Source: Mycolicibacterium fluoranthenivorans
GTDB taxonomy: Bacteria; Actinomycetota; Actinomycetes; Mycobacteriales; Mycobacteriaceae
Direction: 5' to 3'
Assembly: GCF_011758805.1 (NCBI RefSeq)
Contig: NZ_JAANOW010000002.1
Coordinates: 1,038,264-1,102,263, forward strand
DNA length: 64,000 nucleotides
Shown: in pieces, positions 5,393-22,339 of the stretch
Layout of the letters: each line of letters starts with the position of its first letter
Position numbering within the stretch: the first letter of the stretch is position 1
Notes under the pieces: generated by a model
Told to the model about the DNA's origin: nothing
The model's input: only the letters and a program-made list of their open reading frames with translations
Databases searched by the model: none
Position numbers and translations under genes: made by a program

Positions 5393-6928
5393 TCAGCGGG
5401 TGGACTTCACGATCTGCGCGAAGTTGAACTGCCAGCGCTCCACGATGTGGAACCCCATCCGCTCGGACACCTGGTACGCCGGTGCCCGGCGCAACCGCGG
5501 GCCGGGATCCAGGCCCGGGCCGCTCTGGTGGTCCGGCACGGACGCGTCCCGTTGCGACACCGTCCACAGCACCGTGCACTTGCGGACCTGGTCGGCCACC
5601 CCCCAGATGCCCAGATGTGCGTCCCAGAGCCGGTTTCGGTCCGCGGCGCGCGCGCCACGGCCCGGGTCCACCAACTTGGCGTAGGCCGCGGGCCGGGCCG
5701 CGGTCAGGGGCCGGATCGGGCCGGGTAGCCAGGTGGTGGTGTTGTCCATGATCAGGCAGTCCCCGGGGGCGGCGTGCGCGGTGACGATATCGGCGACCTG
5801 GCTGAAATCCATACCCTCCTTCGCGTACGGGCCGCGCTGGACCACCAGGAAGTTCGGGGTGGCGGCGACGGCGAGCACTGCCACCGCGGCGGTGGCCCGC
5901 TCGCGGGTCCGTACGAGGGCCACGATGCACACACCGAGCAGCAGTGCCATGGCCGGGGCGGTGTAGGTCAGGTAACGCGGGTAGTAGATCGGTTCGGCCA
6001 CAGCGGAATACGCCAGCATGACGGCGGTCGGCAGTATCACCCATGCCAGCGCGAGCCGGATCAGGGCCTGTGCGCCGGGGTCGGTCGGCCGCAGTCGCCG
6101 GAACACCAGCGGGAGCGCAAGAATCGCTGCGGCGCACACGGCGAACGCCAGGCTCTGATCGAAGTACTGCTTCTTGAGAAGCTCGCCGAATGTGCCGGCC
6201 GACAGCGGAGAGATCCAGTGCACCTGCGCGATCTGGGTGCGGCAGAAGAACAGGAACGGCGCGACCGCGGTGACCGCGGTGCCGGTCGCGACCGCCCAGG
6301 CGACCGCCGGCCGGCGGGCTCTCAGGGTCGCCACATGGGCCGCGTGCACCAGCACCAGCAGCACCATGAAGACGTTGAGCACGGTGGCCAGCGCCAGGCC
6401 GGCGCCGTACCACGCCCACAAACCGGGTCGCTGCCGGCGCGTGGATACGACCAGCAGCACCGTCAGCCACACGGCGACCGCTGCGGTCAGCGCGTAGGAC
6501 CGCGCCTCGATCCCGGCCCACGTCATCCTCGGCAGGATCGCGAACACCACACCCGCGGTGACCGCCGAGGAACGGCCGACGAATTGCCGGGCCAGCGCCA
6601 CCACCCCGGCGGCGGCGACGCCGACGGCCAGGCAGCTGGAGAATCGGGTCCAGAACTCGGTGGCGGGGAACACCGTGAACCACCCGTGCATCAGCAGGTA
6701 GTACGCGCCGTGCACCGCATCGATATTGCCCAGCAGACCCCACAGCTGGCCGACGGTGCGGGTCCCCGCGGAGATGGTGGCCGCCTCGTCGAACCACAGC
6801 GAAGGGCGGGCCGCCCCGGCCGCGCTCACGACTACGGCGAAGACTCCGACCAGGACACTGTCGAGTCCGCCGGTGCGCAACCGGGCGGCCGGATCACGCC
6901 GGCCCAGCGTGAGCTGTGACAGTTGCAC
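5393..6928 (-). CDS. GT-C family membrane mannosyltransferase, Rv1635c/CapA-like
   Basis: A 511-residue polytopic membrane protein with ten or more hydrophobic segments and an acidic first extracytoplasmic loop motif SLWFDEAATIS, the Asp-Glu signature of GT-C polyprenyl-phosphate-dependent glycosyltransferases. A hydrophilic C-terminal domain starts near residue 370. It sits beside the universal stress protein gene exactly as Rv1635c does next to Rv1636 in M. tuberculosis. Rv1635c (CapA) adds the first mannose cap to lipoarabinomannan. From context I infer a related role in envelope polysaccharide mannosylation. Start is GTG with a weak ribosome site. Orthology rather than general GT-C membership is the uncertain part. 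Confidence 0.75.
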   Translation of the reverse strand: MQLSQLTLGRRDPAARLRTGGLDSVLVGVFAVVVSAAGAARPSLWFDEAATISAGTRTVGQLWGLLGNIDAVHGAYYLLMHGWFTVFPATEFWTRFSSCLAVGVAAAGVVALARQFVGRSSAVTAGVVFAILPRMTWAGIEARSYALTAAVAVWLTVLLVVSTRRQRPGLWAWYGAGLALATVLNVFMVLLVLVHAAHVATLRARRPAVAWAVATGTAVTAVAPFLFFCRTQIAQVHWISPLSAGTFGELLKKQYFDQSLAFAVCAAAILALPLVFRRLRPTDPGAQALIRLALAWVILPTAVMLAYSAVAEPIYYPRYLTYTAPAMALLLGVCIVALVRTRERATAAVAVLAVAATPNFLVVQRGPYAKEGMDFSQVADIVTAHAAPGDCLIMDNTTTWLPGPIRPLTAARPAAYAKLVDPGRGARAADRNRLWDAHLGIWGVADQVRKCTVLWTVSQRDASVPDHQSGPGLDPGPRLRRAPAYQVSERMGFHIVERWQFNFAQIVKSTR

Positions 6929-7379: not shown

Positions 7380-7823
7380 ATGAGCGCCTATCGGACCGTG
7401 GTCGTCGGCACGGACGGATCTGATTCGTCACTGCGTGCCGTGGAACGCGCCGGAGAGATCGCTGCTGGAGCGGGCGCGAAACTCATCGTCGCGACGGCAT
7501 ACTTCCCGCAGAGCGAAGACCACCACGCCGCCGACGTGCTGAAGGACGAGGGCTACAAGACGACCGGCAACGCCCCTATCTACGCGATCCTCAAGGAAGC
7601 GAGCGATCGCGCGAAGGTCGCGGGCGCGAAGGATATCGAGGAGAAGGCGATCGTCGGGGCACCCGTCGATGCCTTGGTCGACCTGGCCAATGATTCCGGA
7701 GCGGATCTGCTGGTGGTCGGCAACGTCGGTCTTTCGACCATCGCGGGCCGGCTTCTGGGCTCGGTGCCCGCGAACGTGGCACGTCGGTCGAAGGTCGACG
7801 TGCTCATCGTGCACACGTCCTGA
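7380..7823 (+). CDS. Universal stress protein, Rv1636/TB15.3-like
   Basis: This 147-residue single-domain USP begins YRTVVVGTDGSDSS and ends with GNVGLSTIAGRLLGSVPANV, the glycine-rich nucleotide-binding motif. It closely resembles the M. tuberculosis Rv1636 group, a cytosolic USP reported to bind cAMP with high affinity. Size and neighbours (mannosyltransferase on one side, Rv1637c-like hydrolase and uvrA further on) agree with that assignment. A strong ribosome site (TTGGAGGG) precedes the ATG and a clear intrinsic terminator follows, so it is monocistronic. Confidence 0.92.
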   Translation: MSAYRTVVVGTDGSDSSLRAVERAGEIAAGAGAKLIVATAYFPQSEDHHAADVLKDEGYKTTGNAPIYAILKEASDRAKVAGAKDIEEKAIVGAPVDALVDLANDSGADLLVVGNVGLSTIAGRLLGSVPANVARRSKVDVLIVHTS

Positions 7824-7837
7824 CATCACGTCCGAAG

Positions 7838-11670: not shown

Positions 11671-14583
11671 GTGTCTGACCGTCTGATCGTCAAGGGTGCG
11701 CGCGAGCACAATCTGCGTGGCGTGGACCTTGACCTGCCCCGCGACGCGATGATCGTGTTCACCGGTTTGTCCGGGTCCGGCAAGTCGTCGCTGGCTTTCG
11801 ACACGATCTTCGCCGAGGGGCAGCGCCGCTACGTCGAGTCGTTGTCGGCCTACGCCCGGCAGTTCCTCGGGCAGATGGACAAACCCGATGTCGACTTCAT
11901 CGAAGGCCTCTCGCCGGCGGTGTCCATCGACCAGAAGTCCACCAACCGCAACCCGCGCTCCACCGTCGGCACCATCACCGAGGTCTACGACTACCTGCGT
12001 CTGCTGTACGCCCGGGCCGGCACGCCGCACTGCCCGGTGTGTGGGGAGCGCATCGCGCGGCAGACGCCGCAGCAGATCGTCGACCAGGTGCTGGCCATGG
12101 AGGACGGCACCAAGTTCCAGGTGCTCGCGCCGGTGGTGCGTACCCGCAAGGGCGAATTCGTGGATCTCTTCGACAAGCTGAACTCGCAGGGTTACAGCCG
12201 GGTGCGGGTGGACGGGGTGGTTCATCCACTGACCGATCCACCCAAGCTGAAGAAGCAGGAGAAGCACGATATCGAGGTGGTCGTCGACCGCCTCACCGTC
12301 AAGGCCAGCAGCAAACAGCGCCTGACCGACTCGGTCGAGACCGCGCTGGGCCTGGCCGACGGGATCGTCGTCCTCGATTTCGTCGACCGCGAAGACGACC
12401 ACCCGCATCGCGAACAACGCTTCTCCGAGAAGCTGGCCTGCCCCAACGGGCATCCGCTGGCCGTCGACGACCTGGAACCGCGGTCGTTCTCGTTCAACTC
12501 GCCCTACGGCGCCTGCCCCGAATGCACCGGGTTGGGCATCAAGAAGGAGGTCGACCCGGAGCTCGTCGTCCCCGACCCGGAGTTGACCCTGGCGGAGGGA
12601 GCGGTGGCACCGTGGTCGATGGGCCACACCTCCGAGTACTTCACCCGCATGATGGCCGGCCTCGGCGAGGAGCTCGGCTTCGACGTCGACACCCCGTGGA
12701 AGCGGCTGCCGGCCAAGGCACGCAAGGCCATTCTGGAGGGCTCCGACCACCAGGTTCATGTGCGGTACAAGAACCGCTATGGCCGCACCCGGTCCTACTA
12801 CGCCGACTTCGAGGGCGTCCTCGCCTTCCTGCAGCGACGGATGGAACAGACCGAGTCCGAGCAGATGAAGGAACGCTACGAGGGCTTCATGCGCGACATT
12901 CCGTGCCCGGAATGCGCCGGTACCCGGCTCAAGCCCGAAATCCTCGCGGTGACCCTGGCGGCCGGGACCCACGGTGCCAAGTCCATCGCCGAGGTCGCCG
13001 AACTGTCCATCGCCGACTGCGCGGCCTTCCTCAACGCACTCACCCTGGGCACACGTGAGCAGGCGATCGCCGGGCAGGTGCTCAAGGAGATCCAGTCCCG
13101 GCTGGGCTTCCTGCTCGACGTCGGCCTGGAATACCTGTCGCTGTCGCGGGCCGCGGCGACGCTGTCCGGCGGCGAGGCGCAGCGCATCCGGCTGGCCACC
13201 CAAATCGGTTCCGGACTGGTGGGCGTGCTGTATGTGCTCGACGAGCCGTCCATCGGTCTGCACCAGCGCGACAACCGCAAGCTGATCGACACCCTGATGC
13301 GGTTGCGCAATCTGGGCAATACGTTGATCGTCGTCGAGCACGATCTGGACACCATCGCGCACGCCGACTGGGTGGTCGACATCGGCCCCTATGCCGGTGA
13401 GCACGGCGGGCGGATCGTGCACAGCGGTTCGTACGCGGACCTGCTGAAGAACCCGGAATCCCTTACCGGAGCCTATCTTTCGGGTAAGGAGAGCATCGAG
13501 GTCCCGGCCATTCGCCGGCCCGTGGACCGCAAACGTCAGCTCACCGTGGTGGGTGCGCGCGAGCACAACCTCAAAGAGGTCGACGTGGCCTTCCCCCTGG
13601 GGGTGCTGACCTCGGTCACCGGGGTGTCGGGGTCGGGGAAGTCCACCCTGGTCAACGACATCCTGGCGACGGTGCTGGCGAACAAGCTCAACGGCGCGCG
13701 TCAGGTCCCGGGCCGGCACACCCGGATCAACGGGATCGACCAACTGGACAAGCTGGTCCGCGTCGACCAGTCGCCGATCGGTCGCACCCCGCGGTCCAAC
13801 CCGGCCACCTACACCGGGGTGTTCGACAAGATCCGCACCCTGTTCGCCGCGACCACCGAGGCCAAGGTGCGCGGGTACCAGCCGGGCCGGTTCTCGTTCA
13901 ACGTCAAAGGCGGCCGCTGCGAAGCATGTTCGGGCGACGGCACGCTGAAGATCGAGATGAACTTCCTGCCCGATGTGTATGTGCCGTGCGAGGTTTGCCA
14001 TGGCGCCCGGTACAACCGGGAGACCCTCGAGGTGCACTACAAGGGCAAGACCATCTCCGAGGTGCTCGACATGCCGATCGAGGAGGCCACCGAGTTCTTC
14101 GAGCCGATCTCCTCGATCCACCGCTATCTCAAGACGCTGGTGGATGTCGGGCTCGGCTATGTGCGGTTGGGACAGCCGGCGCCCACGCTGTCCGGTGGTG
14201 AGGCGCAACGGGTGAAGCTGGCGGCCGAATTGCAGAAGCGGTCCACCGGCCGCACCGTCTACATCCTCGACGAGCCCACCACCGGTCTGCATTTCGAGGA
14301 CATCCGCAAGTTGCTCAAGGTGATCAACGGTCTTGTCGACAAGGGCAATTCGGTCATCGTGATCGAGCACAACCTGGATGTCATCAAGACCTCCGACTGG
14401 ATCGTCGACATGGGTCCCGAAGGGGGTGCAGGTGGCGGCACCGTCGTCGCGCAGGGCACCCCCGAGGATGTGGCGGCCACGCCGGAGAGCTACACCGGGC
14501 AGTTCCTCGCAGAGATGCTCGGTATGCCCGCGCCGGTATCCGCGCCTGCCCCGAGCCGGAAGCGGCGCAAGGTCAGCGCGTAG
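11671..14583 (+). CDS. uvrA: Excinuclease ABC subunit A
   Basis: UvrA is the damage-recognising ATPase of nucleotide excision repair and works with UvrB. The protein (970 aa) has two ABC modules: Walker [10 protein letters not shown] near residue 31 and GVSGSGKST near residue 650, two LSGGEAQR signatures, Walker B segments VLDEPSIGL and ILDEPTTGL, and the zinc cysteine pairs [13 protein letters not shown] and CEVCHG. The open frame runs 136 codons further upstream, but that extension is unrelated to UvrA. The GTG at 11671 follows GGTGGAG and gives the family's usual length and start ([18 protein letters not shown]). Its 3' end overlaps the convergent winged-helix gene by 11 bases. I see no LexA-type SOS box upstream. 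Confidence 0.98.
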
Positions 14584-15754
14584 CGGACTTCGTCAGCGGG
14601 GAGGGGAACCGCGGTTTCACCCGCACCCCGTCCAGCCAGGCGGTGAGCTCGTCAGCCTTGTGCTGCAGAGTTTTCCGTGCGCTCGCGGTGACATCCGCCG
14701 TCAACTGCAGGTGCACTCGGCCGTCCTCGTCGTGCACCCAGCCGCCCACCACGCGGCCATCTACCCAAGTGGTCGGCCCGGCATTTCCATAGCGGTCGAA
14801 CACCTGCTCGCGGTGACCGTCCAGGTACCAGTCGCGGTCGAACCAGCCCATGGTGGTGACATCCAGGCCGGGGAGCAACGCGCACCATGGTTCGGCCGCA
14901 GGCTCGGGCTCCAGGTCATCGGGCAGCGCCACACCGGGGGTGCCGTGCAGATCCACCTGCACCGCACCGACCTGGGCCAGGGCGCGCCGCGTCCACGTCA
15001 GGGTGTGGCCGAACCACCAGGCGATATCCGCGACGGTGGCCGGCCCGAAGGCGCGCAGCCAGGTGCGGACCAGCTCGGTTCCGGCCGAATCGGCGTCGGC
15101 GGACGCACCGTCACCCAGCCAGGACGTCCGCGACGCCCACAGCGGCCGCGATGTCGTCCACGCGCCGGTGTTCGGGCCACGGACGATATCGCCGCGCACC
15201 GACAGCACCGTCAGCACCCGGGGTGACACCGGCGTCGCTCCGCCCCAGGGTTTTCCGGGTGCGGGGTCGTAGCTGCCCGCGAGTTCGGGCAGGGCAGTGC
15301 GCAGCTGCGCCGCACCGGTCGGTCCGTGTGTGTCCAGATATGCCAGCACCGCCGCGCACGCGGTGTCCAGCCACGCCGCACCGTCCGTGGCGATCCCGCC
15401 CTTCTCGACATCGGCGATCAGCTTGCGCCGTTCGTTGGCCGCCACCCGGTCGCTGGCTGCCGCCTGCACCGCGGCCAGACTCTCGGAGCCGACCACCCAC
15501 AGGGTGCGGCGCATCGCGAGATGTTTGACCAGGGACCGCCGCTCGTACAACGCACTGTCGAGATCGGCGACGGTGAATCCCGGCATCCGCGCCCACAGCG
15601 ACAGATAAGGGGTCGCCGGATCGCTGGCGTGCAGGCCGACCAGTGCCGAGGAGACGCTCTCCGCGCTGCCGCCGCGCGAGGCCAGGAAATGCCGTCGGGC
15701 CAGCCGGGCGCGCCGCTCCTCGACCGTGAAGGACCTAATCGTCACCACCGGCAC
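14573..15754 (-). CDS. Winged-helix DNA-binding protein of the AlkZ/YcaQ (HTH_42) family
   Basis: A 393-residue protein with the HTH_42 layout: N-terminal winged-helix region (residues 10-110, including [12 protein letters not shown] and [17 protein letters not shown]), a central domain and a C-terminal beta domain ([19 protein letters not shown]). Characterised members are DNA glycosylases for crosslinks and bulky alkyl lesions (YcaQ/AlkZ). The catalytic QxQ/QxD position appears to be His42-Ala43-Ser44 (GLHASDP), so base excision activity is doubtful. It converges on uvrA and overlaps its last 11 bases. The GTG start overlaps the stop of the preceding minus-strand gene, suggesting coupling; GTG codons two and three positions later are alternative starts. 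Confidence 0.75.
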
Positions 15755-16040
15755 GGGGTTTCTCGGGCTGATCCATCGACTCCCGGATCTGGCGCAGGCG
15801 TTCGGCAGCGGCTTCCTGACGCTTCTCGTACTGCTCAGTCACCGAGCGGCCCTCCGGCGTCGCCTCGGCCAGTTCGGTGGCGCCGATCGCGGTACCGAAC
15901 CTGTTCTCGATCTTCTCCCGGACCGACTCGAAGGTCGGTACACCGCTGGGGTCGTACCCGGGATCCGGTGGGGTGGCGGGCAGCACCGGTGCCGGTGGCA
16001 CGGGTTCCGGCGGGACGGAAGACTGCTGCTCATCGGCCAT
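15735..16040 (-). CDS. Small hypothetical protein, 101 aa
   Basis: I do not recognise a named domain. The first 35 residues are Pro-rich (SSVPPEPVPPAPVLPATPPDP). The rest is a charged helix with VREKIENRF, EQYEKRQEAAAERLRQIRESMDQPEK, probably coiled coil. It is cytoplasmic by lack of signal or membrane segments. The ATG at 16040 follows TATCGT plus six bases, a leaderless promoter arrangement, which is why I reject the longer open frame upstream. Its last 20 bases overlap the next minus-strand gene (AlkZ-like), so the two are likely one operon. Confidence 0.65.
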   Translation of the reverse strand: MADEQQSSVPPEPVPPAPVLPATPPDPGYDPSGVPTFESVREKIENRFGTAIGATELAEATPEGRSVTEQYEKRQEAAAERLRQIRESMDQPEKPRAGGDD

Positions 16041-16046
16041 ATCGCC

Positions 16047-16052
16047 ACGATA
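16047..16052 (-). promoter_or_regulatory. -10 element of a leaderless promoter for the 101-aa gene
   Basis: TATCGT on the minus strand, six bases (GGCGAT) before the ATG at 16040, matches the leaderless TANNNT spacing. Confidence 0.55.
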
Positions 16053-16151
16053 CCCACCGCGAAGTTTGGGATCGGTAGCAAGGACGCCCGGATGTACTTC
16101 TCCCACGCCGCGCCACCGGGGCGCCGGGCGAAACGAAGGGACTCTCACGAA

Positions 16152-16646
16152 ATGACGAAGAATCGCGTTCTGGTTGCAGGCATCGGAATGGTCGCGGCCG
16201 CCGCGGTACTGGTCGGCTGCTCCGATGACAGCTCATCGAAGGGCAGCACGCCGTCGGCCAACAACGGCAGCACCCAGGTCAGCTCGGGTGGTGGCACCGA
16301 GGTCAAGGTCGAGGGCCAGGACCTGTCCGGCCTGGACGTCAAGACGGTGACCTGCGTCAAGCAGGGCGGCAAGATCAACATCGCCAGCGGTGCCATCGGC
16401 GGCCAGCAGGGCCTGGGCGTCGTGATGACCGACGAGGCAACCCCGAAGGTCGAGTCGCTGGGTCTGGTGGTGGACGGGAACGCCCTCGCCGTGGCCTCCA
16501 TGGGCGGTGCGAACACCGGTTCGGCAGATGTGAAGGTGGACGGCAGCACCTACACCATCACCGGTGAAGCCGCCGGCGCCGACCTGAAGAACCCCATGGC
16601 CGGGATGATCAGCAAGAAGTTCGAGATCAAGGTCACCTGCAACTGA
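16152..16646 (+). CDS. LpqH-family lipoprotein (19 kDa antigen-like)
   Basis: This 164-residue precursor has a lipoprotein signal peptide with lipobox LVGC (acylated Cys23), a Ser/Gly/Thr-rich linker to about residue 48, and a beta domain with two conserved cysteines (TVTCVKQGGKINIASG and the C-terminal FEIKVTCN). The pattern DGSTYTITGEAAGADLKNPM is the LpqH/LppE family signature. LpqH-type lipoproteins are abundant surface lipoproteins of mycobacteria. The frame continues upstream but the signal peptide fixes the ATG at 16152. A GC-rich hairpin follows the gene. Confidence 0.88.
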   Translation: MTKNRVLVAGIGMVAAAAVLVGCSDDSSSKGSTPSANNGSTQVSSGGGTEVKVEGQDLSGLDVKTVTCVKQGGKINIASGAIGGQQGLGVVMTDEATPKVESLGLVVDGNALAVASMGGANTGSADVKVDGSTYTITGEAAGADLKNPMAGMISKKFEIKVTCN

Positions 16647-16684
16647 TCGTCCACCGTCGGGGCGACGCGAAGACACCCGGTGGC

Positions 16685-16709
16685 GGCGGGCGCGCCTGGC
16701 GCGCCCGCC
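16685..16709 (+). terminator. GC-rich hairpin, probable terminator of the lipoprotein gene
   Basis: Arms GGCGGGCGCG and CGCGCCCGCC are perfect complements around a CCTGG loop, starting 38 bases after the stop codon. Only a short pyrimidine tract (TCTTC) follows, so termination is plausible but not canonical. Confidence 0.6.
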
Positions 16710-16726
16710 GTCTTCGGTGGCCCACT

Positions 16727-16732
16727 TATGAT
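16727..16732 (+). promoter_or_regulatory. -10 element of a leaderless promoter for the TPR-CHAT module
   Basis: TATGAT is an almost ideal mycobacterial -10 hexamer and ends six bases before the ATG at 16739. It should start the transcript of the TPR-like and CHAT genes at the start codon. No clear -35 is visible. Confidence 0.6.
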
Positions 16733-16738
16733 GGCCCG

Positions 16739-18358
16739 ATGTCGATACCCGACGACCTGGAGCGGGCCCGGCGGCTGGCCTTCGCCTCGGATGAACTCGG
16801 GGCCAAAGAGCTGTTGCTCTCGCTGATGGCGCCGATCGAGGCGGCCGACCGGGACGACCTGATGCTGGAGGTTCTCGCTCAACTCGGCGAGATTTACCTG
16901 GTGCGGACGGCTTATGACGGAGTCACCGAAGCAATGAAACGTATCGACGACTGCCTGCAGACCTATCGCGGCATCCGGGCGGGTACGCGGCCCGAGGACG
17001 CAGCGCAGGTCACCATGACCGCGGCCGAAATCGACCACATGGTCTGCCGTTACACCCGGCGCGCCCGGTTTCTGCAGACTGGTTTGGCCGCCGCGCACGG
17101 TGAGCACGAGGCGGCCGCGGCCGCACTGCACCAGCTGGCCGAGGATCCCGGCAGGTTCGACGACCTGACCGCCGAGCATGCGTACCTGGTGACCCATGCC
17201 CGCATCCTGTGCGCGGCCGCCCTGTGTGATGACGATCTTCACGTCCAGTCACTTCCCTTGTGGGAGAAAGTGTTCGATGCCCTGGACGGCCCGGGGGACG
17301 ACACCGAATTCGACGATACCCTGCGTGTCCTGGCCGGCACCGGCTACGGACGTTTCTGTGTCGAGACGGGCCGCCTGACCGAGGCCGAACCCTGGCTGCG
17401 CCGGGCCGGGGCCCGCGCCCTTGCACGTGGGTGGGATCTCGCCACGGCCAGAACCGAATTGGAGCGCGCCACCGCGGCGTGGGCGGCGGGGGACCGGGCT
17501 CGCGCCCAAGATCTGGTGCACGGCGCCTATCCGGTCATCGCCGAACACGCCCGCGCCCACGATGTCTCGCGCAGCTGGCTGTACTTCGGCCTGATCAGCA
17601 TCTCGGTGGGAGCCCTCGACGACGCCGACGAGCGTCTCAGCCATGCCGAACGGCACTGGCGTGAGATCGAAAAGCCGCTGCACATCCACCGAATCCTGGT
17701 GCAGCGCAGCTGGGTCGACATCCTGCGCGGTGACTTCGCCGCCGCCGGCGACCGTGTCGCGGAGGCGCGTGAGCTACTCGACAGCTGGCCCAGGAGCAGC
17801 TGGCTGCAGTACGCGCGGCTCGACGACCATCTCGGATCGATCCTGCGGGCGGAGGCGCTCGCGGACACGGAGACCGCCGAGGAGAAGTTCGCGCGGGCCG
17901 CCGATCTCAAGGTGCCGGCCGCGCTGGCCGTCGACACGGTGCGGCACACCATTGCCGACGCCGACGCCCGGATGAGATGGGCCACCCATGTCTCGGGCCG
18001 CCTGCTGGCCGGGGCATTCGCCGTCGCGTGGGAATGGGGTAACACCGGCCTGGTCAGCGAGCTCATCGAATACCATTGCGCGCGAGGCGCATTCAGCGTT
18101 CCGCAATCACCACTGACGATGGGTTGGGCGGACACCGCGACCGCGGCGGTGCCCGTCGACGACGCCGACGAATACGCGTTGGTCGCGTCCGGGCCGGGAT
18201 CGACGGCCGGGGGAGCGCTCACCAGGCTCGGCCCGCTACCGCCGTTGCGGATGGACCCGGCCACGGGGCCGGTCCTGGCGCGCTACCGCGAACTCGCGCA
18301 ACAGCGGTACGGCAAGACCGTCACCTCTGCCGAAGCCGAGTGGTCCACCTGGCCATGA
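16739..18358 (+). CDS. TPR-like helical repeat protein, partner of the CHAT protease
   Basis: A 539-residue cytoplasmic protein made largely of helical hairpins that read like degenerate tetratricopeptide repeats (for example GTGYGRFCVETGRLTEAEPWLRR, SVGALDDADERLSHAERHW and VDILRGDFAAAGDRVAEARELL at residues 200-370). It has no signal or membrane segment. Its stop overlaps the CHAT gene start by four bases (ATGA). In many bacteria a TPR region is fused to or encoded with a CHAT protease and acts as its sensor or substrate-recruiting arm, as in the TPR-CHAT protein of type III-E CRISPR. No nuclease or CRISPR gene is near. The trigger and partners are unknown. Confidence 0.75.
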   Translation: MSIPDDLERARRLAFASDELGAKELLLSLMAPIEAADRDDLMLEVLAQLGEIYLVRTAYDGVTEAMKRIDDCLQTYRGIRAGTRPEDAAQVTMTAAEIDHMVCRYTRRARFLQTGLAAAHGEHEAAAAALHQLAEDPGRFDDLTAEHAYLVTHARILCAAALCDDDLHVQSLPLWEKVFDALDGPGDDTEFDDTLRVLAGTGYGRFCVETGRLTEAEPWLRRAGARALARGWDLATARTELERATAAWAAGDRARAQDLVHGAYPVIAEHARAHDVSRSWLYFGLISISVGALDDADERLSHAERHWREIEKPLHIHRILVQRSWVDILRGDFAAAGDRVAEARELLDSWPRSSWLQYARLDDHLGSILRAEALADTETAEEKFARAADLKVPAALAVDTVRHTIADADARMRWATHVSGRLLAGAFAVAWEWGNTGLVSELIEYHCARGAFSVPQSPLTMGWADTATAAVPVDDADEYALVASGPGSTAGGALTRLGPLPPLRMDPATGPVLARYRELAQQRYGKTVTSAEAEWSTWP

Positions 18359-19560
18359 GCGAAACCACCCTGGTCCTGCGCTACGCCGACGTCGGCGTGG
18401 CCACCTACGGCAGCCTTCGCGTCGTCGGGCAACCGGACCGAACCGTCACCTGGGTGCTCGACGAGCCCGCCCTCGGTGCGGTGCGCGACCGGCTCGGCGA
18501 GGCGCTGCCCGACCCGCGTCCGGGCGAGACGATCCGGACCGCGCTCGAACGTGCGCTCACCACCGGGGCGTTCGCGGCGCCGGCGGCCGAGCAGGAGATG
18601 GCCGAACTCCTGGGCGCGGGGCTGATCCCGGCCGCCGGCTGGGAGTTGATCGTCGGCGCCGCGGGGGACGCGCCGGCCACGCTCTTCGTCGCGCCGACCG
18701 CGGGCCTGGCTCAGGTGCCGTGGATGGCGCTGGCGATGCCGGACGCACCGGGGCGACGGCTGATCGAACTCGCCGACATCCTGTTGGCCGCGCCGCCCAA
18801 CATCGCCAACGCCCCGCGAAAGCCGGCGAGCTGGGCGCAGCGGCGCGATCACGCGGCACTGCTGATCCTCGACCCGCGCGTGCCCGGCCAGCGACCGGAC
18901 TCCGCGCTCGGCTCGGTGCTCGGCCGGCCCGACCCCACCGGTCCGCTGACCCGTCACTTCGCGCAGCGCCGGGCCCACCGTGACGTGCTGCCCCAGGTGG
19001 AGTCGACGGTCGAGCTGTTCCGCAGCACGCAAGCCGATCGCAGGTGGTTCGCCGGCCAGCTCGCGGCGGCGCCGAGCCGATTGTTGTTCGTCGGCCATGC
19101 CACCGCCGCCGACGGTGAGGTCGGCCACGCCGACCGCGCATCGGTGCATCTGGCCGACGCCAGTCCGCTGTCGGCCGCGGACCTGATGACCGCGCAGTTG
19201 CCGATCCCGCCGCGGGCGGCGCTACTGGCCTGCTCCTCGGGTGGCGACTACCGGTTCGACGAGGCGACCGGACTGGTCGCGGCACTCATCCTCGGCGGTG
19301 CCGTGCTCGTCACGGCCACGCTGTGGTCATTGCCCACCGCCGCCGGCTACCGCCAGTTCAGCGGCACCGCAACGGAATCCATCGATCCGATGGCCGAAGT
19401 CGTCATCGCCGTCGACTCCGCGCACGAAGCGGTCGAGGCGGGCCGGGCGGTCAACGCATGGCAACGCTCCCAGCTGATCCGCTGGCGTGACGGTGACGGT
19501 GCCGCGAGTCCGCTGTACTGGGCCGCTCTTGCCACCTTCGCGGTGGACGGTGCGCGATGA
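18355..19560 (+). CDS. CHAT-domain protein (caspase-like cysteine protease)
   Basis: This 401-residue protein carries a CHAT domain over about residues 90-400. Visible hallmarks are the FVAPTAGLAQVPWMAL strand, the catalytic His248 in LLFVGHAT, the catalytic Cys293 in ALLACSSGG, the ATLWSLPTAAG segment and the terminal PLYWAALATFAVDG. Both dyad residues are present, so proteolytic activity is expected. The N-terminal 90 residues are a separate small domain. The open frame extends upstream, but the ATG at 18355 overlaps the TPR-gene stop. CHAT proteases are usually effectors that cut a partner protein on a signal. Possible targets are the two unknown proteins encoded downstream. Confidence 0.85.
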   Translation: MSETTLVLRYADVGVATYGSLRVVGQPDRTVTWVLDEPALGAVRDRLGEALPDPRPGETIRTALERALTTGAFAAPAAEQEMAELLGAGLIPAAGWELIVGAAGDAPATLFVAPTAGLAQVPWMALAMPDAPGRRLIELADILLAAPPNIANAPRKPASWAQRRDHAALLILDPRVPGQRPDSALGSVLGRPDPTGPLTRHFAQRRAHRDVLPQVESTVELFRSTQADRRWFAGQLAAAPSRLLFVGHATAADGEVGHADRASVHLADASPLSAADLMTAQLPIPPRAALLACSSGGDYRFDEATGLVAALILGGAVLVTATLWSLPTAAGYRQFSGTATESIDPMAEVVIAVDSAHEAVEAGRAVNAWQRSQLIRWRDGDGAASPLYWAALATFAVDGAR

Positions 19561-19564
19561 GCCC

Positions 19565-19888
19565 TCAACGCGGGTCCGGGGCGGCGACCGCGACCGACGA
19601 CTCGTCGCCGGGACGGTAGTAGGTGTCGACGATGCTGCCAGGAGTGAAGCTCGCCAACGACGCTTCGGGAATCATCGTCGTCTCGCGGGCCGCGAACTGT
19701 CCTCCGTCGGGACGGGTGACCATGATGTCGAGTTCGACCTCGTGGCAGTCCGCGCAGAAGTCGCCGGTGAGGCGCAACCCGACGATCACGCCGCGGGATC
19801 GCACCATGGCGGTCGTCGGGACCAGCAGGACCGCGGCCGTTCCGCCGAACAGGAAGCTGAAGAAGACCAGGGTGGGCAGGGTAGGCAT
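19565..19888 (-). CDS. Small membrane protein, DUF3592-like
   Basis: A 107-residue protein with one N-terminal membrane segment (residues 5-27, LVFFSFLFGGTAAVLLV) and a small beta domain ending YYRPGDESSVAVAAPDPR, similar in shape to DUF3592 proteins. It lies on the opposite strand in the middle of the CHAT module: its stop is four bases from the CHAT stop and its start is divergent from the next plus-strand gene. The ATG at 19888 follows GGGTGA, which favours it over an upstream in-frame start. Function unknown. Confidence 0.65.
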   Translation of the reverse strand: MPTLPTLVFFSFLFGGTAAVLLVPTTAMVRSRGVIVGLRLTGDFCADCHEVELDIMVTRPDGGQFAARETTMIPEASLASFTPGSIVDTYYRPGDESSVAVAAPDPR

Positions 19889-19931
19889 GCGTTCACCCTG
19901 GACGACATGCGCGGCTACCGAACCCAACTTC

Positions 19932-19937
19932 TATCCT
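19932..19937 (+). promoter_or_regulatory. -10 element of a leaderless promoter for the 436-aa gene
   Basis: TATCCT fits TANNNT and ends six bases before the ATG at 19944, so the second half of the module can be expressed from its own start. Confidence 0.55.
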
Positions 19938-19943
19938 GTTGCG

Positions 19944-21254
19944 ATGAGCGCAGCCCCCGATACGCCGGTGGCCGTGCGGCAACCCCGCCGCGCGGTGATC
20001 GAACAGGCGTGGCGCGCCATCGGTGCCGGTGTCGAGGTGCTCAGCGCCGATGACGGCGGACCGTTGAGCCGGACGGTCAAACGGATCATCGATCCGCTGG
20101 TGCTGCGTCTGCGCTCCAACACCAGGTATTCGGCGCCGTTCGTGACGGCGGACGTCGCCGCCGAGATCCACGACGCGATCGTCGGTCACGCCGATACGCT
20201 GCGTGCCACCGCACGGTGGTTCGACACGCTCAAGCGGGAACGCCGCAGACAGCGCATCACCACCGGCAACGCCCAGGAACTCTATTTCCCGCTGTGTTTC
20301 GAACTCGCGGTCACCAAGGGTGCACCGTCGGACGAGGACCTGGCGGGCGCCGGAGTTCTGCTGCGCGACATCCACTCCGACCGCGATCGCATGGCGATCG
20401 AGGTACTCAATCGTCACATCGGGGACGACGCCGTGGTCGCGGCGTTGACGGCCCAGCTCGCCCGCAGCTGGCGCGATGTGCGTGCAGGCAACGAGATCAC
20501 CGGCCCCTTCCTGGCCGGGCTGGGCACTGTGCTCGGCAGTGTCGACGGGCACAACGCCGCGGTGGCCCGGCAGCGGGTGTGGTCGGCGTTGGTGGCCGAC
20601 GCAACCCCGTACAACCTCGGGGCCGCGGCACATTCGGCCGGTGCCGAACTGCCGTGGTCGATCGTCGATCTGGGGCTGAGTTCCGCTGCACCGCAACAAT
20701 GTCCGACCATCGCCGGTGGTGAGGGGGATCGTCCGCTGGACCGCAGCGTCGTCGACCGCGTGCGGGCGACGCTGCGCCGGGCACTGGCCCGTGACGAACT
20801 GCCCGATGTGCCGTTGCTGTGCGCCGAAGAGGTCGATCGCGTCTGCTCGCCGTGGGGCCTGCTGGGCGAGGACAAGCAGGCGACGCTGATCGCCGGTATC
20901 GAGATCGCTGTCGATCTTGCGCCGCTCGACGAGACGGCGCAGGCCCGTCATGACCTGTCGCGCCATATCCAGGCCAGGCTCCGCAAAGAGGCGTATGTGC
21001 TGCACGCGCGGCGCTATCTGGCCGGCGACGCCCCGATCCATCCGCGCCAGCAGCTGATCGTCGACGAACTCGCCGCATTCTGCCGGCCGTATCTGAACCG
21101 GTTGTGGGCCCGCCTGCACGGCCGCGACGTCTGGCAGGAGCCATGCTCCGACGTCGATGACGTCCGCGAGCTGTTGGAGGGCGTATCGCGTTCGGTCAGC
21201 CTGGATCACCGTCAGCGGATCAAAGCCATGCTCGAAGCGCAGGACCTGTCATGA
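19944..21254 (+). CDS. Unknown protein, 436 aa, in the TPR-CHAT module
   Basis: I do not recognise the family. The sequence is soluble, rich in helices, with a basic patch (TLKRERRRQRITTG near residue 95) and repeated acidic helical stretches such as VRATLRRALARDELPDVPLLCAEEVDRVC. There is no signal peptide, membrane segment or known catalytic motif. The frame is open far upstream, but the ATG at 19944 is chosen because of the TATCCT element six bases before it and because upstream residues are compositionally unlike a protein. It overlaps the next gene by four bases (ATGA). Its position makes it a possible CHAT substrate or scaffold. Confidence 0.7.
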   Translation: MSAAPDTPVAVRQPRRAVIEQAWRAIGAGVEVLSADDGGPLSRTVKRIIDPLVLRLRSNTRYSAPFVTADVAAEIHDAIVGHADTLRATARWFDTLKRERRRQRITTGNAQELYFPLCFELAVTKGAPSDEDLAGAGVLLRDIHSDRDRMAIEVLNRHIGDDAVVAALTAQLARSWRDVRAGNEITGPFLAGLGTVLGSVDGHNAAVARQRVWSALVADATPYNLGAAAHSAGAELPWSIVDLGLSSAAPQQCPTIAGGEGDRPLDRSVVDRVRATLRRALARDELPDVPLLCAEEVDRVCSPWGLLGEDKQATLIAGIEIAVDLAPLDETAQARHDLSRHIQARLRKEAYVLHARRYLAGDAPIHPRQQLIVDELAAFCRPYLNRLWARLHGRDVWQEPCSDVDDVRELLEGVSRSVSLDHRQRIKAMLEAQDLS

Positions 21255-22339
21255 GGTTCGTCGAGGAATCCGGATTGTGGTCCACCGGACCGGCACCCGC
21301 GCCGGTGCCGCTGACGGCCGTGCTGGAGGTCGCGGGCGCCGTGTTGTCCTGGCCGGTGGACCGCCCAGCCGCCGACGTGCACCTCGCCTTCACGGATCCG
21401 GCGCGGGCCGACTGGCTCTGGCGGGTGGTCGGGGAGCGTGGGCACGATGCGATCGCCCGCGCGCTCGAGGCGGCCGCCGGAGATCCGGTCGACGTCGGGG
21501 AAGTGACTTTCGACGCTGCGGCACTGGAACCGTTGCGGCGGTTGGCGCTGGGACACTGGCTGCGCCGATGGTGGCCGGCCAGTAGCCGCGACGGTATCGC
21601 CGAACTCGATCCGGCGATCCTCGCCGGTGAACTGGCGCTTCTGACGACGGCCGCCGAGGCGTATTTCGCCGACGACACCTTCGACTCGGACGTGGCCGAG
21701 CTGTTGCGCCCACACGTTGCCGTGCTCGATGCGCAGGCAGCGCTCGGTGACCCGCGCATCGGCGAGATCGCCCGCGCCTGTGCTGAATTGGCCGAGGATA
21801 TCGGGGCCGCCGGGGTAGTCCCCGTCGCCCCGGCACGGGTGGGTCGCCGAGACGACTACGCGCTGGTCGCCGGTGCGGACCGAACCGGCACGGCGGCGTC
21901 GGGCATCGCCGCAGGCGTGACGTCGGTGAGCTGGGCGGCCGTCCCGGCCGGCATCTTCGATGCGGCCGAGGACACGGTGGACTGGCGAGTGGTATCCGCC
22001 GGCGGCGTCGTCAGCGTGGTGGTGCGGGCGGAACTCGGCGGACCGCACTCGCCTGCGGGTATCGCGGTGGGGGTGACGGCGGGCGAGATCGGTGGCTCGG
22101 GGTCGCTGGACGACACCGGCGCCGCGACGATTCCCTTGCTCGACCGCTTGGGTGGTCCGGTGCCCGAACCGGTGGCCTGGAACCGTGATTGGCGGGACAC
22201 CACGGTGACGGTCGGGGGCGGCGCCACCGAGACGGCGCAGGAACGCGAAAGGGTCCGGGCCATGGTGCGCGACCGGTTACGCCGGCCGGGGCGGGACGCG
22301 TTCCTGGCCGAGATCCTGGCTGCCGAAGCCGACTACTGA
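21251..22339 (+). CDS. Unknown protein, 362 aa, in the TPR-CHAT module
   Basis: I do not recognise the family. Residues 1-200 appear mainly helical (for example ALEPLRRLALGHWLRRWW, EIARACAELAEDI), and residues 205-320 look beta-rich with SVSWAAVPAGIFD and WRVVSAGGVVSVVVRAELGG, ending in a charged helix ETAQERERVRAMVRDRLRRPG. It has no signal peptide. It is the last gene of the module, coupled to the 436-aa gene through an ATGA overlap and convergent with the membrane esterase. A role with the CHAT protease is inferred only from position. Confidence 0.7.
   Translation: MRFVEESGLWSTGPAPAPVPLTAVLEVAGAVLSWPVDRPAADVHLAFTDPARADWLWRVVGERGHDAIARALEAAAGDPVDVGEVTFDAAALEPLRRLALGHWLRRWWPASSRDGIAELDPAILAGELALLTTAAEAYFADDTFDSDVAELLRPHVAVLDAQAALGDPRIGEIARACAELAEDIGAAGVVPVAPARVGRRDDYALVAGADRTGTAASGIAAGVTSVSWAAVPAGIFDAAEDTVDWRVVSAGGVVSVVVRAELGGPHSPAGIAVGVTAGEIGGSGSLDDTGAATIPLLDRLGGPVPEPVAWNRDWRDTTVTVGGGATETAQERERVRAMVRDRLRRPGRDAFLAEILAAEADY

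Follow-up and report, generated by a model that had tools for sequence, protein, structure and literature searches.

The pairing of caspase-like CHAT proteases with tetratricopeptide repeat (TPR) proteins is already known. In the ternary systems called CATRA, for caspase and TPR repeat associated, one operon encodes a caspase-like protease together with a TPR protein and a conserved but uncharacterised third partner. One description terms this ternary conflict system caspase-dependent (PMC8195603). In the type III-E CRISPR Craspase, the TPR-CHAT protease Csx29 cleaves Csx30, a partner encoded in its operon, and the cleavage site lacks conservation among orthologues (PMC11106740); this cleavage has been proposed to lift the inhibition of a sigma factor (PMC10028731). 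Here we describe a cassette from Mycolicibacterium fluoranthenivorans, found in a stretch of 64,000 nucleotides (the window; contig NZ_JAANOW010000002.1) of a 6.4 Mb genome, in which genes for a TPR-type protein and a CHAT protease lie beside genes for two proteins of 436 and 362 residues (p436 and p362) that belong to families without a name. A sequence-only reading of the window had singled out these four genes as a possible signalling or defence system. The mycobacterial unit consists of six genes, a four-gene core (TPR, CHAT, p436 and p362) plus a lipoprotein and a membrane protein. Our leading account of what it does, held tentatively and at slightly less than even chances, is that a TPR-regulated CHAT complex in this unit-moving cassette cuts a client arm, likely p362, upon an envelope-linked trigger.

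The cassette resembles Craspase in having a TPR arm, a CHAT protease with a His/Cys dyad and dedicated operon partners, and some of its relatives have TPR and CHAT in one frame. Unlike in Craspase, TPR and CHAT are encoded separately in the window, the mycobacterial cassette includes lipoprotein and membrane-protein genes, and p436 and p362 have no useful sequence match to solved chains. Within the cassette no gene for a sigma factor was recognised, and no CRISPR-like direct repeats (at least 20 bases, within 120 bases of each other) were found between positions 6000 and 34000, where no search aimed at gRAMP was made. The likeness to CATRA lies in the protease, TPR protein and unknown partner within one operon. 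CATRA-C (PF20270) is unmatched in the cassette (CATRA-N was not searched by itself), and no CATRA family turned up among 22 p436 and 25 p362 homologues at E <= 5. Over 149 genomes PF20270 gave two matches, one of them just above the cut-off; the match in locus L217 falls in a long repetitive frame with a coiled-coil look and was not taken as genuine CATRA. The sole CATRA-C match of the window genome lies elsewhere, on another contig, and is weak and below the cut-off (G000:C1:260381-260593, E 7.7e-4). PADLOC-DB 2023 returned 0 matches at E <= 1 for eight relatives and for five of the six window proteins (the lipoprotein was not scanned). Two papers on MoxR-vWA and related conflict systems do not use CHAT to name a domain (the word is absent from PMC7159879, and its three occurrences in PMC8195603 are all a surname). 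In the literature searched, which comprised open-licence papers, we found no description of the cassette, nor the published function for the set that the sequence-only reading had named as a possible refutation; the present set of partners was likewise not found in the family libraries used.

The case for a unit comes from two samples of the genus, the best 80 of 204 named-genome loci recovered via p436 and a set of 98 genomes searched separately with p436, CHAT and the lipoprotein. The genes stand on one strand in the order lipoprotein-TPR-CHAT-p436-p362. CHAT, p436 and p362 are present in 80/80 loci, TPR in 77/80 and the lipoprotein in 72/80, and each of the eight loci missing a gene starts at a contig end no more than 250 bases from the first gene found. 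The reverse-strand membrane gene was seen in 48/80 loci in a first count and in 79/80, always on the reverse strand, when searched with its two domains (domain 2 only in 31, like the window, domain 1 only in 30, both in 18); L115 is the sole locus where it was not found. Among the 98 genomes p436 is positive in 64 and CHAT in 63, the CHAT set being the p436 set minus G005, a fragmented genome with the lipoprotein present and a p436 contig of 4.3 kb. The lipoprotein has a best match of E <= 6e-31 in those same 64 genomes, and in the other 34 the best match is 6e-22 or worse, or there is none. These 98-genome counts alone inform, for the genus, on the frequency of CHAT or TPR apart from p436 and p362; the 80-locus and outside-genus sets do not. 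Co-occurrence of the four genes, which the sequence-only reading had itself named as the check that could refute it, thus holds in 80/80 genus loci, barring contig-end losses, and in 19/23 loci outside the genus. Its four open reading frames and their two couplings, both by ATGA, are confirmed, but its picture of one four-gene block needs amending, as the reverse-strand gene interrupts the two pairs and the lipoprotein gene extends the unit to the left.

The same unit is found in different places. The uvrA/lysX site holds 44/80 loci; in the window the cassette sits there between uvrA and an esterase gene (PF00756), called Rv1639c-like in the sequence-only reading. A second site, holding 30/80, is bordered by aminotransferase-like and enoyl-CoA-hydratase-like genes at one end and by a beta-lactamase-like hydrolase gene at the opposite end (gene names assigned by eye). 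A further five have a third right-hand flank in common and L184 is unplaced, so the cassette occupies at least three chromosomal sites. In the p436 tree the 30 second-site loci form one clade with full support, and the non-uvrA label requires at least three changes, of which the starred branches alone force one; the closest p436 kin of the window among named loci are in Mycobacterium sp. nzgw94 and Mycolicibacterium iranicum. When 16 module-free genomes were queried with the esterase, 12 matched and eight regions were fetched. Seven of these have the uvrA-to-Rv1639c/lysX stretch intact and none of the cassette's six genes; the eighth, L212, yielded no uvrA and its site is not comparable. Since the six genes occur at multiple sites and are absent whole from seven empty ones, the cassette is gained, lost or moved as one unit, and the accessory insertion surmised from the window sequence is borne out.

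Outside the genus we considered 23 loci found via p362 or p436 (L080, L092-L102, L185-L187, L219-L226), and 19 of these contain p436, p362, TPR and CHAT. The order is p436-p362-TPR-CHAT in 18/19 and the mycobacterial one in L080, where p362 is shortened, with an internal stop and a piece on another contig. The exceptions are L223, whose 5 kb contig carries just p436 and p362, L226 and L102, where matches are weak and the cassette is absent, and L225. The lipoprotein is found in L080, L099 and L185 only. A DUF3592-like gene lies near the core in 11/19 loci. In L092, L094, L100, L185 and L220 it is divergent from p436; in L093, L095-L098 and L101 it follows CHAT and scores lower. In Nocardia farcinica (L185) the lipoprotein gene and a two-domain membrane gene stand divergent beside p436, so that all six parts are present in another order. 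The core was met on Streptomyces plasmids, in Nocardia and in further families. With all four core genes in 19/23 loci, we therefore regard the four-gene core as general and the envelope parts as common but lineage-variable. In L095 two DUF3592-like genes directly downstream of CHAT (12083-12709 and 12606-13583; E 3.4e-4 and 9.9e-4, below cut-off) are kept in five sister loci. L092 (10116-11270), L094 (11356-12510) and L100 (10509-11663) share a conserved extra gene, placed between those for p436 and the membrane protein. Its product has one hydrophobic N-terminal segment (by eye) ahead of a large domain that in L094 weakly matches a PQQ propeller (E 0.0086, below cut-off). Perhaps this anchored, propeller-like protein is the lipoprotein's counterpart there, a putative envelope sensor. 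In L225 a p436 fragment with an internal stop (7707-7826), without other core genes, looks like a decayed remnant.

More broadly, p436 was found in 11/396 genomes in a phylum search (alignment A1) and in 23/296 in a class search (alignment A3). Because only four to five candidates were scored per genome, and because a protein search returned many Streptomyces and Nocardia homologues, these are probably undercounts. Among candidates scored, at least 1167 database proteins match p436 and at least 1259 match p362 at E <= 0.001. Plasmid records with p436 number 6/72,556 (five Streptomyces, one Nocardia), and phage records 0/50,697.

The identity of the protease is as the sequence-only reading had it. 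Its PF12770 match is the only CHAT match found in the window genome, 14/14 members of alignment A4 match the same family, and His248 and Cys293 are invariant in 95/95 aligned rows (the window and 94 loci). The TPR-like label is also upheld, by way of relatives: the window protein gave no match in a Pfam scan, TPR_12 exceeds its cut-off in 3/5 scanned homologues (L099, 6.4e-21; L094, 1.1e-15; L185, 1.5e-15) and falls below it in two (L095, 1e-5; L186, 1.8e-5), and only by these homologues is the window protein, which is degenerate, classed as TPR-type. That reading's further point, that the TPR arm is separate from CHAT, is true of the window but not of all relatives, as 8/99 loci, all eight outside the genus and from several lineages, have both within a single open frame. 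In the window an ATGA overlap joins the TPR and CHAT frames and another joins p436 and p362. The latter overlap is ATGA or GTGA in 80/80 genus loci; for TPR and CHAT the nearest in-frame start gives such an overlap in 66/77 scorable loci; in the other 11 it sits seven bases ahead of the stop codon. The C-terminus of the TPR protein (window 18341-18358) is conserved too, as W-S/x-T-W-P.

Neither p436 nor p362 has a Pfam family over cut-off or any match in NCBIfam, PADLOC or PHROG, so that the sequence-only reading's description of both as lacking a recognised family stands. No Pfam family recurs in 22 p436 or in 25 p362 homologues; HEAT_PBS in one of the 25 (E 0.0019) and DUF7696 in the window p362 (E 0.08) were taken as chance. 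Profiles of both proteins against PDB chains gave only unrelated matches, at E 0.16 or worse. p436 is predicted to be all-helical (mean pLDDT 79.5) and shows the highest conservation within the core, with a mean majority fraction of 0.80 against 0.76 for CHAT, 0.73 for TPR and 0.67 for p362. In the predicted model of p362 (mean pLDDT 72.2) a low-confidence stretch at residues 190-215 joins the two halves; in the alignment, residues from about 184 to 199 vary freely and the last 14 are largely kept. The protein ends in Tyr in 78/79 closed genus frames, mostly as ESDY or ESAY, and outside the genus it ends in an acidic stretch with Phe or Tyr in 11/19 loci.

Of the two remaining genes, the lipoprotein is, from its matches, a clear PF05481 member and LpqH relative (E about 5e-15 against the solved structures 7fds and 4zjm), and 70/72 lipoproteins have a lipobox-like motif. 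The LpqH family (the mycobacterial 19 kDa antigen) has been studied mainly as antigen; unlike in such reports, the lipoprotein here is tied to a protease cassette, a context we did not find in the literature searched. The reverse-strand protein combines a DUF3592-like domain with a single hydrophobic segment at its N-terminus (by eye); it was not assigned to DUF3592 (PF12158) itself, which does not match the window gene and matches L185 only below cut-off (E 0.019). Both window proteins weakly match PHROG entries that have no assigned function (E from 7e-4 to 9e-3). These two parts likely link the cassette to the envelope.

The gene for an AlkZ-like glycosylase, found in 5/7 empty sites, is part of the host site and not of the cassette. 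The small open reading frame left of the cassette lies to the right in other genomes (as at 8202-8459 in L062), which may reflect two insertion points or a local rearrangement. The hairpin between the lipoprotein and TPR genes belongs to a stretch, 16644-16740, with a folding energy of -54.8 kcal/mol (z -2.75), and could be an attenuator or a processing site. No tRNA genes were found in the window.

Table. Features of the cassette and its left flank, in window positions.
Feature	Position	Strand	Basis and remarks
AlkZ-like DNA glycosylase	14573-15754	-	PF06224, E 1.6e-63; adjoins uvrA
Small open reading frame	15735-16055	-	left of cassette in window
LpqH-type (19 kDa antigen) lipoprotein, lipobox LVGC	16152-16646	+	PF05481, E 5.9e-30; left cassette edge
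GC-rich hairpin, without U tract	16685-16709	+	between lipoprotein and TPR genes
TPR-type repeat protein, 539 aa	16739-18358	+	TPR by homologues
CHAT caspase-like protease, 401 aa, His248/Cys293	18355-19560	+	PF12770, E 2.8e-14
Small membrane protein, DUF3592-like domain	19565-19888	-	divergent from p436, convergent with CHAT
p436, all-helical (predicted), family unmatched	19944-21254	+	open reading frame; predicted model
p362, helical N half and Ig-like beta half (predicted), tail E-S/A-x-Y	21251-22339	+	open reading frame; predicted model

How might such a cassette work? We propose that the TPR protein and CHAT form one complex, in which the TPR protein would keep the protease inactive and present clients to it, and that p436 and p362, a translationally coupled pair, would be the client or sensor arm. 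We infer p362 to be the client because its linker between folded halves is variable and its C-terminus is fixed. Binding of free C-termini is an established property of some TPR proteins, the carboxylate-clamp TPRs and the peroxisomal receptors, and the acidic-aromatic tail of p362 (ESDY, EEDF and similar) may dock in the TPR groove. CHAT would then cleave p362 within the variable linker that joins the helical half to the Ig-like half, such that a fragment or p436 is freed. The envelope might supply the trigger: in mycobacteria and Nocardia by way of the DUF3592-like membrane protein and the LpqH-type lipoprotein, in some relatives by way of the membrane-anchored propeller-like protein. The outcome would most likely be a stress response, with growth arrest upon phage attack as an alternative. 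Several observations weigh against this scheme: the acidic-aromatic tail is absent from p362 in 8/19 outside loci; the lipoprotein (3/19) and the DUF3592-like gene (11/19) form no universal envelope part there; the hairpin separates the lipoprotein gene from the TPR gene; and the p436 and p362 models are of middling confidence, with fold searches giving no trustworthy match. We consider it unlikely that the full chain holds, that is, envelope-to-cytoplasm proteolytic signalling in which the lipoprotein or propeller-like protein and the DUF3592-like proteins would lead TPR-CHAT to recognise the p362 C-terminus, cut the linker and free p436 or the Ig-like half.

It is also conceivable that the cassette serves in anti-phage abortive infection, with p436 and p362 sensing infection, CHAT being unleashed and the cell dying or ceasing to grow, a role that the sequence-only reading had raised. 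The cassette is accessory (64/98 genus genomes), inserts cleanly, uses several chromosomal sites and has its core on Streptomyces plasmids as well, all of which would suit such a role, and caspase-like TPR-CHAT proteases do serve CRISPR defence (PMC11106740). Yet we found no PADLOC match, no p436 in phage records and no CRISPR-like repeats near the cassette, its sites have long been kept, and p436 is strongly conserved instead of diversified. A defence role, unsupported so far, is therefore possible but not favoured, and we regard it as somewhat unlikely.

Another model places the substrate elsewhere: CHAT would not act on p436 or p362, the core would be a scaffold or quality-control complex, and the protease would process other host proteins, the lipoprotein or the membrane protein. 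That the membrane gene accompanies nearly every genus locus is consistent with this, and p362 is itself only a candidate substrate. Against it, p436 and p362 stay with CHAT where neither a lipoprotein nor a membrane gene was found (L187, L219, L221, L222, L224), and the p362 linker varies while its tail does not; we judge this model decidedly unlikely. Least probable of all, in our view, is that the lipoprotein and the reverse-strand gene are mere neighbours without a functional part in the cassette. The hairpin in front of the TPR gene and the want of a lipoprotein near the core in 16/19 outside loci would fit it, but both genes follow the cassette to its other sites and are missing from the seven empty ones, and both stand beside the core in N. 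farcinica despite the different gene order there.

CHAT proteases cut dedicated partners in CRISPR settings, and we found no reports of actinobacterial partners in the literature searched; the cassette now offers a fixed set of candidates, p436 and p362 among them. It also ties an LpqH-family lipoprotein to a specific protease module, which makes a physiological role testable by simple deletions. If the envelope-to-cytoplasm switch proves true, it would be a new kind of signalling in actinobacteria, and the 19 kDa lipoprotein family would gain a signalling partner.

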